Part shown: in pieces, positions 6,753 to 14,400 of the stretch
Layout of the letters: the number at the start of each line of letters is the position of its first letter
Position numbering within the stretch: the first letter of the stretch is position 1
IMG/VR virus record: IMGVR_UViG_3300048023_000625
Coordinates: 1 to 52,690 of that record
DNA length: 52,690 nt
Origin: a virus
Strand: one strand, 5' to 3'
The notes under the pieces: model-generated
Databases searched by the model: none
What the model was told of the DNA's origin: nothing
The model's input: only the letters and a program-made list of their open reading frames with translations
Position numbers and translations under genes: made by a program

Positions 6753-7844
6753 ATGTTAGATGCACTCAAAAATCTCTTCGAAAATGACGCACTATCAGAA
6801 GAAGTACGTTCTGAATTAGAGGAAGCGTGGAACGCAAAAGTTAAAGAAAATCGACTTGAAGTTACTAGTGAACTACGCGAAGAATTTGCTAAAAAGTATG
6901 AACACGATAAAACTACAATGGTAGAAGCCATTGATAGTCTTGTTACAGAAAAACTAGCAGAAGAAATCGCAGAATTCCAAGACGATCGTAAACAACTAGC
7001 AGAAGCAAAAGCAAAATTTGCTGTTGCTCAGCGTAAAAATGCTAATCTAATGAAATCTTTTGTTTCTGAGCAACTTGCTACAGAAATTAAAGAACTGCAC
7101 TCCGATCAAAAAGCAATGGCAGATAAATTTGTTGCTCTAGAAGAGTTTGTAGTAGAATCACTTGCGAAAGAACTTGCAGAATTTTACGAAGACAAAAAAG
7201 ACTTGGCCGAAACAAAAGTACGTTTAGTACGTGAAGCCAAAGAACATCTTAGTAGCGTTAAGTCAACGTTTATTAAGAAAAGTGCAGCGTTGGTATCAGA
7301 AACAGTATCAAAGGGTCTCACAAAAGAGATTTCTTCACTGAAAGAAGATATTGAAGCAGCACGTGAAAATGATTTTGGACGTAAATTATTCGAAGCATTT
7401 GCTAACGAATATCAACACTCATATCTTAACGAGAAGAGTGAAACTTCTAAACTACTAAGGGTTGTAGGTACTAAAGACCAACAGCTTGCAGAAGCAAAAG
7501 AAGCAGCGTCTAAAGCAATCAAACTTGCAGAAGCACAGGCAGCAGAGAACAAAAAGATCACTGAATCTGTGTCACGCAAAGAAAGTATTGATGGTTTAGT
7601 AGCTCCGTTGAGCATTGACCAGAAAGAAATAATGATGGACTTGTTAGAATCAGTTCAAACAGGAAAATTACAATCACAGTTTGAGAAATACTTACCGGCA
7701 GTTATCGACGGCAAGAGTCCAACGAAGAAGGCAGTTTTAGCAGAGGCAAAAGAAGTAACAGGCAACAGAACAGAAACAACTGATATAACAGCAAAGGCTG
7801 ATAGCAACGTAGTTGATATCAAGCGTTTAGCTGGTTTGAATTAA
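6753..7844 (+). CDS. gp22: Prohead scaffold protein gp22
   Basis: A 363-aa, almost wholly helical, Glu/Lys/Ala-rich protein between gp21 and gp23. It is the main internal scaffold that shapes the prohead and is degraded by gp21. Long coiled-coil stretches cover roughly residues 1-280, with repeated segments such as VTEKLAEEIAEFQDD, SEQLATEIKELHSD and VESLAKELAEFYEDKKDLAE spaced about 35 residues apart. Many L-x-E sites suit gp21 cleavage. The C-terminal third (SIDGLVAPLSIDQKEIMMDL, then FEKYLPAVI) resembles conserved gp22 ends. T4 gp22 is about 269 aa, so this one is longer. The ribosome site is GAGGAG. The function is assigned by position and composition as much as sequence. Confidence 0.88.
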   Translation: MLDALKNLFENDALSEEVRSELEEAWNAKVKENRLEVTSELREEFAKKYEHDKTTMVEAIDSLVTEKLAEEIAEFQDDRKQLAEAKAKFAVAQRKNANLMKSFVSEQLATEIKELHSDQKAMADKFVALEEFVVESLAKELAEFYEDKKDLAETKVRLVREAKEHLSSVKSTFIKKSAALVSETVSKGLTKEISSLKEDIEAARENDFGRKLFEAFANEYQHSYLNEKSETSKLLRVVGTKDQQLAEAKEAASKAIKLAEAQAAENKKITESVSRKESIDGLVAPLSIDQKEIMMDLLESVQTGKLQSQFEKYLPAVIDGKSPTKKAVLAEAKEVTGNRTETTDITAKADSNVVDIKRLAGLN

Positions 7845-7854
7845 GGAGATAACA

Positions 7855-9024
7855 ATGTCAGAACTATTAGAAAGTCGCTGGCAAGAGACTAAAACAGCAC
7901 TTCTTGAAGGCCTAAATGGCAATAAGAAAGCAGTTATGGCGTCAACACTTGAGAATACACGCAAGTATTTGGCTGAGACTGCAGGTGCTGGAGCTACCTC
8001 TGCCGGCAATATCGCAACACTTAACCGTGTGATCCTACCAGTGATCAGACGTGTTATGCCAACAGTGATTGCAAACGAAATCGTTGGTGTTCAGCCAATG
8101 ACAGGTCCAGTGGGTCAAATCCACACATTGAGAGTACGTTACTCTGATACAGCAGGCTCAGGCGCAAGCGGAGCAACAGCTGGAGAAGAAGCACTTTCAC
8201 CATTCAAAATTGCTGAAGCATATTCTGGTGCAACCAGTGGTAAAGCAGCAGCAACAGCAGCTCTAGAAGGTGCAGCTGGTAATAAACTTAGCATTCAGAT
8301 CTTGAAACAGACTGTTGAAGCTAAATCACGTAAGTTATCAGCACGTTGGACATTTGAAGCGGCACAAGACGCTCAAAGCCAGCACGGTATCGATGTAGAA
8401 GCAGAAATTATGGCAGCACTTGCTCAAGAAATTACTGCAGAAATCGATCAAGAGGTCCTAGGATCACTTGCTTCTTTAGCAGGAACAGGTACAGACACTT
8501 ATAACCAAGCAGCAGTATCTGGTACAGCTACATTTGTTGGCGACGAACACGCAGCTTTAGCAGTTCTAGTTAACAGAGCAGCAAACAGAATTGCACAGAG
8601 AACACGTAGAGGCGCAGGTAACTGGGCTGTTGTTTCTCCAGCAATTTTGACTGTACTTCAGTCAGCAACAACTTCAGCGTTCGCAAGAACAACTGAAGGT
8701 ACTTTTGAAGCACCAACAAATACTAAAATGGTTGGTACTTTGAACGGTGCAATGAAAATCTACGTAAACACATATGCAGCAGATGATGATGTATTAGTTG
8801 GATACAAAGGTTCTTCAGAATCAGACGCAGCAGCGTTCTACTGCCCATACATTCCGTTAATGAGTAGTGGCGTTGTACTTGACCCAACATCATTTGAGCC
8901 AGTCGTATCATTTATGACTCGTTATGGATATGTTGAGTTGTCAAACACAGCTTCGTCTCTTGGTAACGCAGCTGACTACGTAGAGAAAGTTGAAGTGAAC
9001 ACAGGTAACTTGAGTTTCTCATAA
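7855..9024 (+). CDS. gp23: Major capsid protein gp23
   Basis: A 389-aa HK97-fold capsid protein of the T4 gp23 family. The N-terminal region contains NTRKYLAE at residues 34-41; the LAE matches the gp21 rule, predicting cleavage after Glu41 (T4 gp23 is cut after residue 65). Downstream are LNRVILPVIRRVMPTVIANE and GVQPMTGPVGQIHTLRVRYS near 55-98, LSARWTFEAAQDAQSQHGID near 160, and the C-terminal YCPYIPLMSSGVVLDPTSFE near 328-347 with FMTRYGY. It is much shorter than T4 gp23 (521 aa), mainly in the insertion regions, as is usual for marine relatives. AAGGAG precedes the ATG, and a strong terminator follows at 9043-9069. gp24 is not in this window. Confidence 0.96.
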   Translation: MSELLESRWQETKTALLEGLNGNKKAVMASTLENTRKYLAETAGAGATSAGNIATLNRVILPVIRRVMPTVIANEIVGVQPMTGPVGQIHTLRVRYSDTAGSGASGATAGEEALSPFKIAEAYSGATSGKAAATAALEGAAGNKLSIQILKQTVEAKSRKLSARWTFEAAQDAQSQHGIDVEAEIMAALAQEITAEIDQEVLGSLASLAGTGTDTYNQAAVSGTATFVGDEHAALAVLVNRAANRIAQRTRRGAGNWAVVSPAILTVLQSATTSAFARTTEGTFEAPTNTKMVGTLNGAMKIYVNTYAADDDVLVGYKGSSESDAAAFYCPYIPLMSSGVVLDPTSFEPVVSFMTRYGYVELSNTASSLGNAADYVEKVEVNTGNLSFS

Positions 9025-9042
9025 GCTAAACTTTACAAGTTC

Positions 9043-9069
9043 AAAATAGGCCCTACGGGGCCTATTTTT
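9043..9069 (+). terminator. Rho-independent terminator after gp23
   Basis: An 11-bp perfect stem (AAAATAGGCCC with GGGCCTATTTT), loop TACG, then a T run. It closes the head operon. Confidence 0.9.
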
Positions 9070-9072
9070 ATG

Positions 9073-9080
9073 AGTAAATA
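9073..9080 (+). promoter_or_regulatory. Late-promoter-like octamer
   Basis: AGTAAATA followed by C, immediately after the gp23 terminator and 18 nt before the ATG of the cold-shock-like gene. Same GTAAATAC form as at 269-276. Moderate support from recurrence and position only. Confidence 0.4.
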
Positions 9081-9098
9081 CCCACAAGGAGTAATATA

Positions 9099-9293
9099 AT
9101 GATATACAAAGGTCAGGTTTATAAGTTTACAGGTAAATGGGGTGTTGTACGTCCAGATGCATTTGGTCAAGTACGTGTTGACGTACTGTTTGATAAAAAT
9201 CAACATAAACTAATTATTGGTGATCGTGTTGAATATGAACAAATTGAAAAAAATAATAGAAGATATGCAGAAAATATTGTAAAAATAGGTTGA
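9099..9293 (+). CDS. Small cold-shock-like (OB-fold) protein
   Basis: A 64-aa protein whose order MIYKGQVYKFTGKWGVVRPD-x-VRVDVLF-x-LIIGDRVEYEQIE-x-RRYAENIVKIG follows the cold-shock domain plan (GxVxxFxxxxGFGFI, DVFxH, LxxGxxVxFExxxxxGxxAxNV). The aromatic RNP residues usual in CspA are only partly kept: Trp21 replaces the GFGF patch and LFDKN replaces VFVH. Nucleic-acid binding is therefore plausible but weakened. The ribosome site is AAGGAG. Its stop codon overlaps the -35 box of the promoter for the RNA gene that follows, so a functional link is possible but unproven. Confidence 0.55.
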   Translation: MIYKGQVYKFTGKWGVVRPDAFGQVRVDVLFDKNQHKLIIGDRVEYEQIEKNNRRYAENIVKIG

Positions 9294-9317
9294 CTTTTAT
9301 TTTGTATATGCTATATT
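9290..9317 (+). promoter_or_regulatory. Sigma70-type extended -10 promoter for the ncRNA
   Basis: TTGACT at 9290-9295, a 16-nt spacer, and TATATT at 9312-9317, preceded by TGC so that an extended -10 (TGnTATATT) is present. The expected start is about 9323-9325. Followed by no good ribosome site or long reading frame. Confidence 0.75.
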
Positions 9318-9321
9318 AAGT

Positions 9322-9568
9322 ACATAACAAAGACGACGGTCCTAGTTAGATAGTGCAAGGAAGAGAGATAGCAGGTCTCAAACTTGGCTAGTAGTTGTAG
9401 TGACAGCGTATGAGCGTGGAGACACGAAGATGCGACTTTAAACGTAACTGTTTGATACTAGGCTCTTGGTGATTTAGCAGAACAGACTGCAAAGCCGGGT
9501 TGTTGGTATTCTGAAGTCCAACCTATCAACATTATAGAAAAAGGTCTACTTCGGTGGGCCTTTTTTTA
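9322..9568 (+). ncRNA. Candidate stand-alone structured phage RNA, about 240 nt
   Basis: The segment lies between a strong promoter and a strong intrinsic terminator and has no credible gene: the longest ATG frame is 20 codons at 9410-9472 without a ribosome site. It is more GC-rich than its surroundings. Visible pairings are CCTAGT (9341-9346) with ACTAGG (about 9457-9462), enclosing GTCTC (9375-9379) with GAGAC (9419-9423) and the AAAC-GTAACT-GTTT hairpin (9440-9453). Beyond these are GCAG-AACAGA-CTGC (9477-9490) and GTTGG...CCAAC (9502-9522). It does not look like tRNA, tmRNA, 6S RNA, RNase P RNA or a riboswitch known to me. The function is unknown; regulation in trans or action through the neighbouring small protein are guesses. 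Confidence 0.65.
9538..9567 (+). terminator. Intrinsic terminator of the ncRNA
   Basis: A 12-bp stem (AAAAAGGTCTAC with GTGGGCCTTTTT, two G-U pairs) capped by a C(UUCG)G tetraloop and followed by more T residues. Confidence 0.9.
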
Positions 9569-9597
9569 CGAACATTATAACCCATTTTTTCGAAAAG

Positions 9598-9605
9598 GAT
9601 AAATA
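9598..9605 (+). promoter_or_regulatory. Late promoter octamer of the fibre block
   Basis: GATAAATA followed by CTA, about 95 nt before the first fibre-block ATG. The expected start is about 9611, giving an unusually long leader. It follows the ncRNA terminator directly. Confidence 0.65.
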
Positions 9606-9694
9606 CTATTGTCAGATAGTATGCCGCAAGGCGGACTTATGCTGTACCCGCAGCGTAGCTCATAGAACGGGCATCGGACTTCTAAACAGGAGAA
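9603..9694 (+). other. Structured 5' leader of the fibre block
   Basis: Locally GC-rich (about half G+C in 9623-9677). Visible helices are ATACTAT with ATAGTAT (9603-9609/9616-9622; only possible in read-through RNA because it overlaps the late promoter), CCGC-AAG-GCGG (9624-9634), and a bulged ATG/CAT plus CCCG/CGGG stem (9639-9674) enclosing AGC-GTA-GCT. The ribosome site AGGAG at 9688-9692 stays unpaired in this model. It may stabilise the RNA or control translation. Confidence 0.5.
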
Positions 9695-9699
9695 AACAA

Positions 9700-10050
9700 A
9701 TGGGAAGACCTATTAATAAAAGAAACTTTGGCGCTACTGGAGCCACCACACCAACAATACCAGTTAGATATCACAACGGATCATCAAGTGTAGAAGGTTA
9801 CATTGTGAATCAAAAAGGTACAAACAAATTTACAGTAACAACTAACGGTTCTGATACATTCGTATGCAGACTTGTTAATGAAGTTGCTCCAAATGCAGCA
9901 GCAGAAATGTCATTAGTTGGCTTAGCAGGCAGTCCTGTTATTCTGAAGAAACTATTCAACAGAACAGCAGTTGATTGGGACGGTAACCGTTATACTTGGA
10001 CTACTGAGGACGACTCTACCGAATCATTGTTAAGACTGACAGCCATTTAA
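9700..10050 (+). CDS. Conserved marine T4-like virion protein (MGRPINKRNFG family)
   Basis: A 116-aa, predicted beta-rich protein beginning MGRPINKRNFGATG and containing RYHNGSSSVEGYIVNQKGTN near residues 23-42. Small proteins starting MGRPxNKRxFG with a GYIVxQKG block recur upstream of fibre genes in marine T4-like phages, where they are annotated as structural. That recognition is from memory. It opens the adhesin block, is preceded by AGGAG and the structured leader, and is 11 nt before the next gene, so all are probably co-transcribed. The exact role in fibre or virion assembly is unknown. Confidence 0.6.
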   Translation: MGRPINKRNFGATGATTPTIPVRYHNGSSSVEGYIVNQKGTNKFTVTTNGSDTFVCRLVNEVAPNAAAEMSLVGLAGSPVILKKLFNRTAVDWDGNRYTWTTEDDSTESLLRLTAI

Positions 10051-10061
10051 GGAGTTTCTAA

Positions 10062-11081
10062 ATGGCTCAACGTATCAATAGAATCGGCGCAGATTCTTAT
10101 GTAATCAAAGTAGATAATGGCGGAAGCATTGAATTAGATGTAGGACCAGCAGGTGCTGTCACAGTAACCGGTGATCTTGCAGTTCAAGGTGAAAGCACAT
10201 CTATTGGATCTAGTGATCTTGTAGTTGAAGATAATACTATTACTGTCAACGCAGGTGAAACAGGCAGCGGAGTTACATTAAACACAGCCGGTTTAATTGT
10301 TGAGCGTGGAATCGCAAATGATGCTTACTTCTTCTGGGACGAAAGAGTACAAAGTATTAGTGGCGGAATAGCTCGTCAAGGTAGTTGGATATTACAAGAC
10401 TCAACTAATGCTATTAACGGATTAGTTGCATCTAGTATTAGACCAGATACTATAGGAAGTAACAATTTAACTTTACTAGCTGAAGGTACAGGTATTGTTA
10501 CAGTTACAGGTACCACTGATTACGAAAAGCAAGTGTATGACTACACAGGCGATGACATTACTACTAATGCCAGTAATCCAACAAAATTAGTTTTACCAAA
10601 CGACGATGACGCATTAGTATCGGCTAGATTACTTGAAGACTTTGTAAGAGGATACACAACACAAAACTTACAAACAGGTATTTCAAAAGGCGATACTACA
10701 CCTACTAGTGTAAAAACTTTTGACTTTGAAGTTGATTCATCAACAAGTAGAATTGAATTTAAAATCGATGACAATTTGTTAGCAACAATGTTTGAGAATC
10801 GCTTAGAAATTGGCAATATTAAAATTACTGCTAATTCTATTACATCTAGCGATGTTAATGGCGATGTTGTTCTTGCAGGAGCAGGTACTGGCGGTGTTAG
10901 ATTAGATACTGCTACTACTATCAAAAAATTAGCAGACCCAGTTGTACCAACTGATGGAGTTTCGTTATATAGTAAACCATTAGCAGATGGAGGAACAGGT
11001 ATATTTTTTGTAAATGAAGATACAACTCAAGACGAACTAGCAAGTCGGAACAAAGCACTACTTTTCAGTATAATATTTTAA
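10062..11081 (+). CDS. Fibre-block structural protein with beta-helix-type repeats
   Basis: A 339-aa, Thr/Gly/Asn-rich protein. Residues 25-70 (GAVTVTGDLAVQGESTSIGS then DLVVEDNTITVNAG) match the VTGDLxVxG / STELTVDDKTITI repeats found in the giant fibre gene downstream (residues near 2620-2650 there). The middle (FFWDERVQSISGG, ARLLEDFVRGYTTQ) and the end (SLYSKPLADGGTGIFFVNED) look like modules of phage fibre proteins. It is probably a fibre component or adaptor attaching a fibre to the virion. The ribosome site is AAGGAG; the next gene starts 10 nt later. Confidence 0.6.
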   Translation: MAQRINRIGADSYVIKVDNGGSIELDVGPAGAVTVTGDLAVQGESTSIGSSDLVVEDNTITVNAGETGSGVTLNTAGLIVERGIANDAYFFWDERVQSISGGIARQGSWILQDSTNAINGLVASSIRPDTIGSNNLTLLAEGTGIVTVTGTTDYEKQVYDYTGDDITTNASNPTKLVLPNDDDALVSARLLEDFVRGYTTQNLQTGISKGDTTPTSVKTFDFEVDSSTSRIEFKIDDNLLATMFENRLEIGNIKITANSITSSDVNGDVVLAGAGTGGVRLDTATTIKKLADPVVPTDGVSLYSKPLADGGTGIFFVNEDTTQDELASRNKALLFSIIF

Positions 11082-11091
11082 AGGAACAGAA

Positions 11092-11424
11092 ATGGCAATA
11101 GTAAACGCACAAATAGCAAGCACAGATACAATATTAATTACTGTCCCAGCAGCTAAGAAATATGCTATAACTACAGTTCTAGTGTGTAACAACCAGTTTG
11201 ATGACTCTAGTGGTGCAAATGATACAACATTTGATATGCACGTTATACCAGCTGGTCAAAGTAAAACACTTAGAAATTTAGTTTTAAATGACTTAAAAGT
11301 TGCAGCGGCAGATACATTTACATTTAATGTAGAAAGATTGATTTTAGAGGCAGATGACAGATTAGTGTTTGTAGGTGCTAACCCACAAAATTTAAGTGTT
11401 ACAGTAAGTTATTTGGAAGTATAA
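11092..11424 (+). CDS. Small beta-rich virion-type protein
   Basis: A 110-aa protein with alternating hydrophobic strands (TDTILITVPAAKKYAITTVL, then CNNQFDDSSG and FDMHVIPAGQSKTL) and no transmembrane segment. The pattern resembles small beta-sandwich proteins in marine phage fibre operons, which are of unknown function. It is preceded by AAAGGAAC and ends with a TAA directly abutting the ATG of the 2830-aa fibre gene, so the two are likely coupled in translation and perhaps in assembly. Confidence 0.55.
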   Translation: MAIVNAQIASTDTILITVPAAKKYAITTVLVCNNQFDDSSGANDTTFDMHVIPAGQSKTLRNLVLNDLKVAAADTFTFNVERLILEADDRLVFVGANPQNLSVTVSYLEV

Positions 11425-14400
11425 ATGGATTATTTTAAGAGACAGTCGTTACATAGCAGGTTAATAGGAGACACTAGTGTAACATTAACAGCAGATGGCG
11501 AAGTCTTAATCGAACCAAGCGGTCGCAAGGTTACGATTGACGGCGACTTAGTTGTTACAGGAAACGCAAGCGGTTCTGAAGTTACTGACATACTTTATGT
11601 TACCCAAGACGGTAATGATTTAAATGACGGTAAAAGTTTAGGACCAGACGGAGCGAAAGCAACAATTAAAAGTGCTGTCGCTTCATCAAGCCCGGGTACT
11701 ACAATTCTTGTAGGACCAGGAGATTTCTATGAATCAAATCCAATAACTCTACCAGATTTTGTTACTATTAGAGGTACTGGTGATTTAAGAAATACTAGAA
11801 TTTTCCCAAGAAATAATACGCAAACTATTTTCTATATGGGAAATGGTTGTTACTTACACGAACTTACTATGAGAGGGTTAAGATATCCAGGATGGTGTGC
11901 TGAAATACGAGAAGGCGCACTTGTAACAACATCACCATATATACAAAACTGTACAAATATGAATGGTCCTTGGTTGAATGACGGCACAGAATTTATTCCA
12001 TTCGAAACAGTGCAGATACCAGGAATTGAACCTGGTGCTAAACCATTAATGGTTGAAGATTATCCTGCTTTACCTTCTGGCAAACAAGTTAATGACACAG
12101 GCGGCGGTGGCGGCCTATATGTTGACGGTAATCAATATGATCCTGCATCACTTGTGTTTAGTTTTGTTGCAGATGCATTTACACAAATTGCACAAGGCGG
12201 AGTTGGCTTTTGGATTGATAATTTTGGTTACACACAAATTGTTAGTTGTTTCTCAGTATTCTGTAGTGTTGGTTTTAAAACCACACGAGGCGGCTATCTA
12301 TCTATTTCAAACTCTGTAAGTGACTTTGGATTAAAAGGTATTGAAGCAGACGGATTCTATCCACAAGCATATACAACTGCCAGACCACAGCAAGATTATT
12401 TTAGTACTGTTGCAAGTGTTACAATTAATACACCTGGTGCAAATTATACTTCTGCTCCTACTGTTGTAATAGAAGGACCATCAAAAGTTGGAGGCGTAAC
12501 AGCGACTGCCACTGCATCAATAGACACTACTTCAGGAAAACTAGCTGCTGTTACAATACAACAAGCAGGTAGCGGTTATACTAGTGTCCCTTTAATTTCA
12601 TTTAGTGGAGGCGGAGCAACTGCTCAAGCCACAGGCACAATTAATCTTGCCTCTAATGTCACAGTAACCCTAAACAGTTTAAGAGACAAACCACAAACAG
12701 GTAGTATAATTAAATTTGAAGGTGACCCTCTTTATTATTATATTACTGGAACTAATCAAATTAATCCACCTTTTGTTTATGATGAGGTAGTATGTAGAAG
12801 AGATTTACGTAGGATTATTGACGCTGTCACTGCTGATATTGTTTTAGGCACAAGTTATCAATCACAAGCAGCAGCAACAAGTTACTTGAGAGCAACATCA
12901 AGTAAAGTATTATCAGATCAATTGGCACCAACTGTTTTTGGTATTGAATCGGCTAGAGACGGAATGAAGGCCGAAACTACTAATCTAGCAATGGAAGAGC
13001 AAATTGATTATTTGTTTAACATAATTACAAGCACAATTAATGAAGGGGACAGTAGTGTACAGCCCGATAATCAAAATGATATTGCTAATACACTAAACGA
13101 TCTGAATACTATCGACCCTGCAAGAATTGCTGCAAAAAATAATGTTTTAGAAAATAGAGAGTTTATAGTAGAAGAAGTTGCAGCATATGTTAATGATCAG
13201 TTTACTGAACTAAGTTATAACCAAGCTGATTATACTAGTGATATGACAACACTTATTAATGGTATTCAAATGTTTGCAGCGTTAGAAAGTAACCAGCAAA
13301 TTATTAGACTTGCTCAAGAATACGAAGTACGCACTAGATTCAAACCAATGTTGTTGTCTAGTTTTAGATTCCTAAGCGAAAAATTTGAAGCACTAGCCGA
13401 AGTACAAGCAAGTACAATTGCATTAACAAATGTTAAAGAAGGCTTCAACCAGTTTATGAATATTATTGATGATGGTGATAGTTCGGCAAATGTAATTGTA
13501 TTTCCTGAACACGCAGGAGTTGATAGCAATAGAGCAGATGCTAAAGATCAATTACAAGCAAACAAAAACTTTTTGACAACAGAATTTACAACTTTTCTAG
13601 CAGCAGAAGCTCCAGGATTTAGTTTTGATGTGGATAATTACAAATTAGATTTTGAAAGAATAATCGATGCTATGACCTTTGACGTCCTGTACAACGGTAA
13701 TAGTAGTACAGTTTTAGAAGCTAGATATTATTTTGATAATGGTGCAGACGGAACTTTATTTTCAGATTTAACACCTAATGATAGAAATGCTATCGTACAA
13801 TCATATGCACGTATGAGATTTGTAATAGGTAGAGTAGCTAGAGGTTTAGCTGTAACAGCTACAACCGGTAATGGCGTTAGTCAAGATTTTACAAGCAACA
13901 ATGCAACACAGAGTGAAGCTGATTTTCTAGATACATTATTGTTTAACATTGAAGATATGATAGATAATGTAACACTAGATAGATTGCCTTCAACTTTAAC
14001 ATATCCAACATACGGGGACGAACCTGCGTTACAGGTAGATGCTGCAAATATTATTGAAGCTAGACGTAACGGTTTTATTACTGATGCTATATCATATAAT
14101 TTAGCAAATAATCCAACACTTACATACAATCAAGATAAATGTAAAAGAGATATCGGTTACTTGGTTGATGGAATTAATCGTGACATACTATTAGGTACTA
14201 ATCATAATAGTATACAGGCAGCTACAGCATATAAACGTGCAAATGTTGCATATCTAAATTCAGAACAAAAACCAGCTACAATTCTTTCATTAAAATATGC
14301 AAAAACATTAGGAATAGCAGCAGTTACAACTAATGATTTAATCAGAGACGATGTTTCAGCAAAATGGGATATAATTCTTGATATTATAGAATTTGATCAA

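Follow-up and report, generated by a model that had tools for sequence, protein, structure and literature searches.

The DNA analysed here, from a T4-like aquatic virus (52,690 nucleotides, hereafter the window), carries, between positions 9290 and 9567, what is most likely a complete unit for one non-coding RNA that acts in trans. Judged by its sequence and predicted fold, this RNA falls into the manA lineage (RF01745), as a divergent member of a family typed by Rfam as cis-regulatory. The lineage is therefore a known one, whereas the window holds a divergent variant in an autonomous unit, and this gives grounds for revising the cis-regulatory label.

The window RNA has the marks of an independent gene: its own promoter, its own terminator and no reading frame (Table 1). 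The initial annotation had described a structured non-coding unit with a host-type promoter, a UUCG-capped terminator and about 240 nt without a credible reading frame. All of these parts are present, and the adjoining gene is preceded by a late-promoter-like motif. No reading frame of 60 aa or more lies between 9293 and 9700, and the frames inside the RNA are of 20-34 aa only. Host-type here denotes the sigma70-type consensus.

Table 1. Predicted parts of the manA-like RNA unit, in window coordinates
Feature	Position	Strand	Elements	Support
Sigma70-type promoter	9290-9317	+	TTGACT 9290-9295, 16-nt spacer ending in TGC, TATATT 9312-9317	
Predicted transcription start	near 9324	+		
Predicted divergent manA RNA, about 244 nt	9324-9567	+		manA alignment and R1 match
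5' hairpin	9332-9341	+	GAC 9332-9334, loop GACG, GUC 9339-9341	sequence and fold
Closing helix of whole domain	9349-9527	+	GAUAG 9349-9353 with CUAUC 9523-9527	4/5 pairs covary, 91% paired
Branch P2	9356-9386	+	CAAG 9356-9359 with CUUG 9383-9386	100% paired
Branch P3, three-hairpin junction	9388-9461	+	closed by CUAGUA 9388-9393 with UACUAG 9456-9461	
P3 hairpins		+	P3a 9394-9404, P3b 9415-9426 (GAGA loop), P3c 9440-9453	
Loop-loop contact P3a/P3c	9399-9449	+	AGU 9399-9401 with ACU 9447-9449	
Branch P4	9465-9499	+	outer CUUGG 9465-9469 with CCGGG 9495-9499	5/5 outer pairs covary
P4 inner stem		+	GCAG 9477-9480 with CUGC 9487-9490	sequence and fold
Branch P5	9502-9522	+	GUUGG 9502-9506 with CCAAC 9518-9522	100% paired, 2 pairs covary
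Intrinsic terminator, UUCG-capped	9540-9567	+	AAAGGTCTAC-TTCG-GTGGGCCTTT 9540-9563, Ts 9561-9567	

A lone consensus match is unremarkable, since 8 promoter-like sites occur in 7500-11500 against 9.4 in shuffled sequences, and the fold energy of the window RNA is only modestly below that of shuffles (z = -1.67). The case therefore rests on relatives, which were collected via neighbouring genes and then, in much larger number, by a motif scan. The counts given for divergent and canonical viral contigs thus describe motif-selected samples among the matches listed, and not a census. It is conservation at the same position in these relatives that lifts the promoter beyond chance. Among the matches listed, a strong promoter (at least 10/12) lies just ahead of the RNA in 41 of 54 divergent members and in 82 of 97 canonical ones, as compared with 3% of shuffles, and a promoter is also present at all six cyanophage copies. 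An intrinsic terminator starting within 70 nt downstream follows 28 of the 54 divergent members (0.7 expected from shuffles) and 14 of 101 canonical ones (1.1 expected), again among the matches listed; in the same matches, about half of the divergent and most of the canonical members have no recognisable terminator. The terminator stems differ in sequence while pairing is kept, and they lie outside the conserved domain. A consensus scanner run over 7500-11500 did not list the window terminator, whose T-run is probably taken up into the stem, while separate scans find it.

The kinship with manA came to light with methods that take structure into account. Comparing the region with phage records by BLAST yielded chance fragments only, hence the need for a structure-aware search, and at the curated cut-off Rfam has no match at 9290-9568. 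A permissive Rfam search, however, aligns 9329-9532 with positions 1-192 of 192 of RF01745; the E value for the stretch is 9e-6 and the score 29.7 bits, which is below the curated gathering score of 55.2 bits. The relatives found at the same place through neighbouring genes match manA at 30-56 bits, one of them above the cut-off; relatives that pass it include L087 (56.4 bits), L200 (57.5), L217 (58.1) and the copy in pelagiphage Mosig (64). For every relative listed, as for the window, the match runs end to end (positions 1-192 of 192).

The reverse search gives a similar picture. A covariance model built from the 54 divergent relatives alone (R1) recovers the manA RNAs of six cyanophages and of seven out of eight canonical contigs with E values of 5e-15 to 7e-7, covering positions 1-185 of 185. 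The one canonical contig that R1 missed is L336, and five bacterial control loci that hold the motif by chance gave no match. On the window, R1 scores 9346-9529 at 124 bits, the window copy being part of its training set. RNAalifold, given no manA input, derives a closely matching architecture from the 54 divergent relatives and the same general architecture from canonical members. These reciprocal end-to-end matches argue that the window RNA belongs to the manA lineage, although it fails the curated score. The initial annotation had recognised no matching RNA family and had itself named a family hit as evidence against its reading; by that measure, the kinship counts against novelty. No GOLLD or ROOL match was found at 9100-9750, even with a permissive search. 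A scan of genome contigs with the canonical motif gave mostly chance matches, with the rest of the RNA kept at four loci (two Flavobacteria records, one Prochlorococcus and one gammaproteobacterial MAG), which are likely to be phage contigs inside bacterial assemblies.

Covariation in the 54 divergent relatives bears out the predicted fold. Changes on both sides are seen in 30 of 37 pairs, and in 17 of the 18 pairs of the P3 helices (helices 3-6); 91% of cells pair. The pairs reach a covariation score of 0.626, compared with 0.179 for shuffles and no more than 0.144 for slid partners, in an alignment that was built without structure but from which the helices were also derived, somewhat favouring those helices. 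The nested helices noticed initially are thus real and strongly covarying, except for the proposed CCTAGT/ACTAGG closing pair (9341-9346/9457-9462), which is complementary yet not a covarying helix. The covarying partner of TACTAG at 9456-9461 is instead CTAGTA at 9388-9393, and this helix closes the three-hairpin junction.

The divergent clade further provides covariation evidence that the loops of P3a and P3c are in contact, where five Watson-Crick types occur (GGU/ACC, AGU/ACU, UGU/ACA, UGC/GCA and UAU/AUA). The loops pair in 38 of the 54 sequences, compared with a mean of 18.9 and a maximum of 29 in permutations that keep relatedness. When only distinct loop pairs are counted, 19 pair against a permutation mean of 8.9 and a maximum of 15, a comparison in which relatedness remains. 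A pseudoknot in manA was marked as uncertain by Weinberg 2010 (PMC2864571), and we infer that it corresponds to this contact. An outer helix between the two ends of the RNA is evident in one subgroup but not across the whole set (own 5.70 versus 5.09), and in the window it would consist of just AUAA/UUAU; it is not claimed here.

The same data make it highly improbable that the stretch is a chance or decaying spacer, that is, transcribed noise or a relic without a functional RNA in the window phage. The low manA score of the window copy and its modest fold energy would be expected of such a spacer. However, every helix that was tested is paired in the window copy, covariation is seen across the 54 relatives, the promoter and terminator are intact, and R1 scores this copy highly, albeit as one of its training sequences.

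The genomic setting of the RNA bears on whether it acts in cis or in trans. Each positive record has one copy (17/17 and 7/7), while several related records lack the RNA, which suggests that it is dispensable in some phages. Its neighbours vary and include gp23, rubrerythrin, purL, psbA-region genes, tRNAs and genes for gp32-like, TalC-like and HAD-like proteins, the "-like" names being assigned from sequence alone. A shared downstream protein does occur: gp32-like at at least 27 loci and TalC-like at at least 7. In the window, the RNA is followed by a late-promoter-like motif at 9599-9606, and an ATAAATA motif of this type precedes the next gene in the window and in most near relatives, so the downstream gene seems independent of the promoter of the RNA. 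No enrichment of ATAAATAC was seen across the whole window. The window RNA does not occupy a cis-regulatory position before a regulated gene, as its terminator and the motif at 9599 intervene.

Could the RNA nevertheless be a cis-acting leader or riboswitch, which senses a metabolite or protein and gates terminator read-through or translation initiation on the following gene? The Rfam type of manA is Cis-reg, Weinberg 2010 lists it as a possible riboswitch (PMC2864571), and a 2025 review still treats it as cis-acting (PMC12197685). Many members run into a gene 15-110 nt downstream without a terminator, and the gp32-like loci recall T4 gp32, which autoregulates through a leader pseudoknot (PMC3014915). 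Against this, terminator arms show no greater complementarity to the RNA that they follow than to other RNAs (6.86 versus 6.96), and no antiterminator pairing was found, so a riboswitch-type attenuator was not seen in this test. The terminators vary in sequence outside the conserved domain, the next gene in the window has its own promoter-like motif, and some members lie inside tRNA arrays or flush against a tRNA. The single copy, the varied neighbours, the tRNA arrays and the lack of a preference for the own RNA are together hard to fit to a next-gene switch. We therefore regard a leader as unlikely for the window RNA, although a leader role may exist in some phages, where members without a terminator may be cotranscribed with the following gene. 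As a label, "cis-regulatory, possible riboswitch" suits the evidence on manA poorly.

A related possibility is a leader that promotes processive antitermination or stabilises the transcript, whereby the nascent RNA would bind RNA polymerase or RNases and genes would be expressed past terminators. The put RNA of HK022 and EAR are analogues for an antitermination leader. The RNA stands at the 5' end of the predicted transcript in most members, often before a terminator, and varied downstream genes would suit a general expression element. However, the promoter-like motif of the next gene in the window speaks against such a role, and the array-embedded members come after many tRNAs and are followed by few genes that could be protected. 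This makes the antitermination reading very unlikely, and less likely than a next-gene leader.

The association with tRNAs is recurrent. Among the matches listed, a tRNA lies within 60 nt at 13 of 158 loci, with 1.5 expected. In S-SSM7, L304, L331 and L366, a tRNA abuts the 3' side of the RNA exactly, and an RNase P cut at such a tRNA would leave the RNA with its own 3' end. In S-SSM7 the abutting tRNA is tRNA-Gly, and this 3' end would lie at record position 151563. Six loci (L170, L171, L175, L182, L198 and L217) have the manA-like RNA within arrays of 6-28 tRNAs. These array-embedded members form a distinct subgroup, mostly without a promoter, and may be unrepresentative of the window.

Several other elements were observed near manA-like RNAs. 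In the window, a freshwater-2 RNA (RF02980, 68.1 bits) lies at 9599-9702; it starts just past the late-promoter-like ATAAATAC and, given this start, resembles a 5' leader belonging to a late mRNA. After gp23 and ahead of the manA-like RNA comes a 64-aa ORF (9099-9293), which is kept beside the RNA in near relatives. It has a weak cold-shock (OB-fold) likeness (Pfam CSD E 0.0045, under the Pfam cut-off), and six of eight members of the ORF set match Pfam CSD. In Mosig (MT647606.1), the unannotated manA RNA at 108164-108371 (minus strand) is directly upstream of the rubrerythrin gene, with a promoter present and a terminator absent; the annotation of this phage also includes SsrA. Another phage contig (L150, 9321-9583, minus strand) contains a tmRNA of alphaproteobacterial or permuted type. 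Many canonical manA RNAs (L328, L335, L341, L359, L387 and others) are followed by a recurring hairpin, GACCTAAGATGCAACT...GGGCAGATGGTC, often with Ts behind it; in L328 this hairpin has no Rfam match. Glutamine riboswitch aptamers flank the manA RNA on both sides in L361 (1194-1803, minus strand). In the 24-tRNA array of L198, the manA-like RNA (8700-8884) is beside a GOLLD RNA (9001-9447), both on the minus strand.

The preferred reading is an autonomous RNA that acts in trans. According to this model, host RNA polymerase would start at the sigma70-type promoter, transcribe about 244 nt and stop at the intrinsic terminator. The RNA would then adopt a closed, branched fold in which two loops are in contact, and would act as a stable structural phage RNA by way of a protein, the ribosome or another part of the translation machinery, without controlling the adjoining genes. 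The initial annotation had proposed an abundant regulatory or host-targeting RNA, possibly produced early in infection. That the window RNA is transcribed, stable and trans-acting is what we infer from its predicted parts and relatives, and a link to translation is a guess from the place of some members in tRNA arrays. In the literature, we found no transcriptome covering this RNA. More broadly, many T4-like aquatic phages, among them the cultured pelagiphage Mosig and the six cyanophages examined, seem to carry manA as a free RNA gene. The question of manA function then becomes a direct one, about the RNA in infected cells and its partner.

Within the manA family itself, the window RNA shares the end-to-end architecture (closing helix, P2, three-hairpin P3 junction, P4 and P5) and the same promoter habit, and in P-RSM4 and S-SSM5 the RNA has the same place after gp23 as in the window. 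It differs in that its P2 is CAAG/CUUG and its closing helix GAUAG/CUAUC rather than GGGAG/CUCCC, and in that it scores under the curated cut-off and has its own terminator behind it, while Rfam types the family as cis-regulatory.

The features of the lineage would be in keeping with a stable RNA of the same kind as GOLLD, ROOL or the T4 RNAs RNAC and RNAD, the last two of which are encoded in the T4 tRNA cluster. It is tempting to speculate, although we hold this to be possible rather than probable, that the manA lineage as a whole comprises autonomous phage stable RNAs like GOLLD and ROOL, some with 3' ends cut by RNase P from an abutting tRNA, and that these RNAs act on the translation apparatus of the aquatic bacteria which the phages infect. 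If so, the cis-regulatory annotation of the whole manA family would be mistaken. Like the manA RNAs, GOLLD and ROOL are structured phage-encoded RNAs of unknown function that are often found near tRNA islands (PMC12286853), but they are far larger and have another sequence and fold. RNAC and RNAD are likewise small phage RNAs of unknown function, seen on Northern blots, but unlike the RNA proposed here they are reported as late RNAs (PMC9697503).
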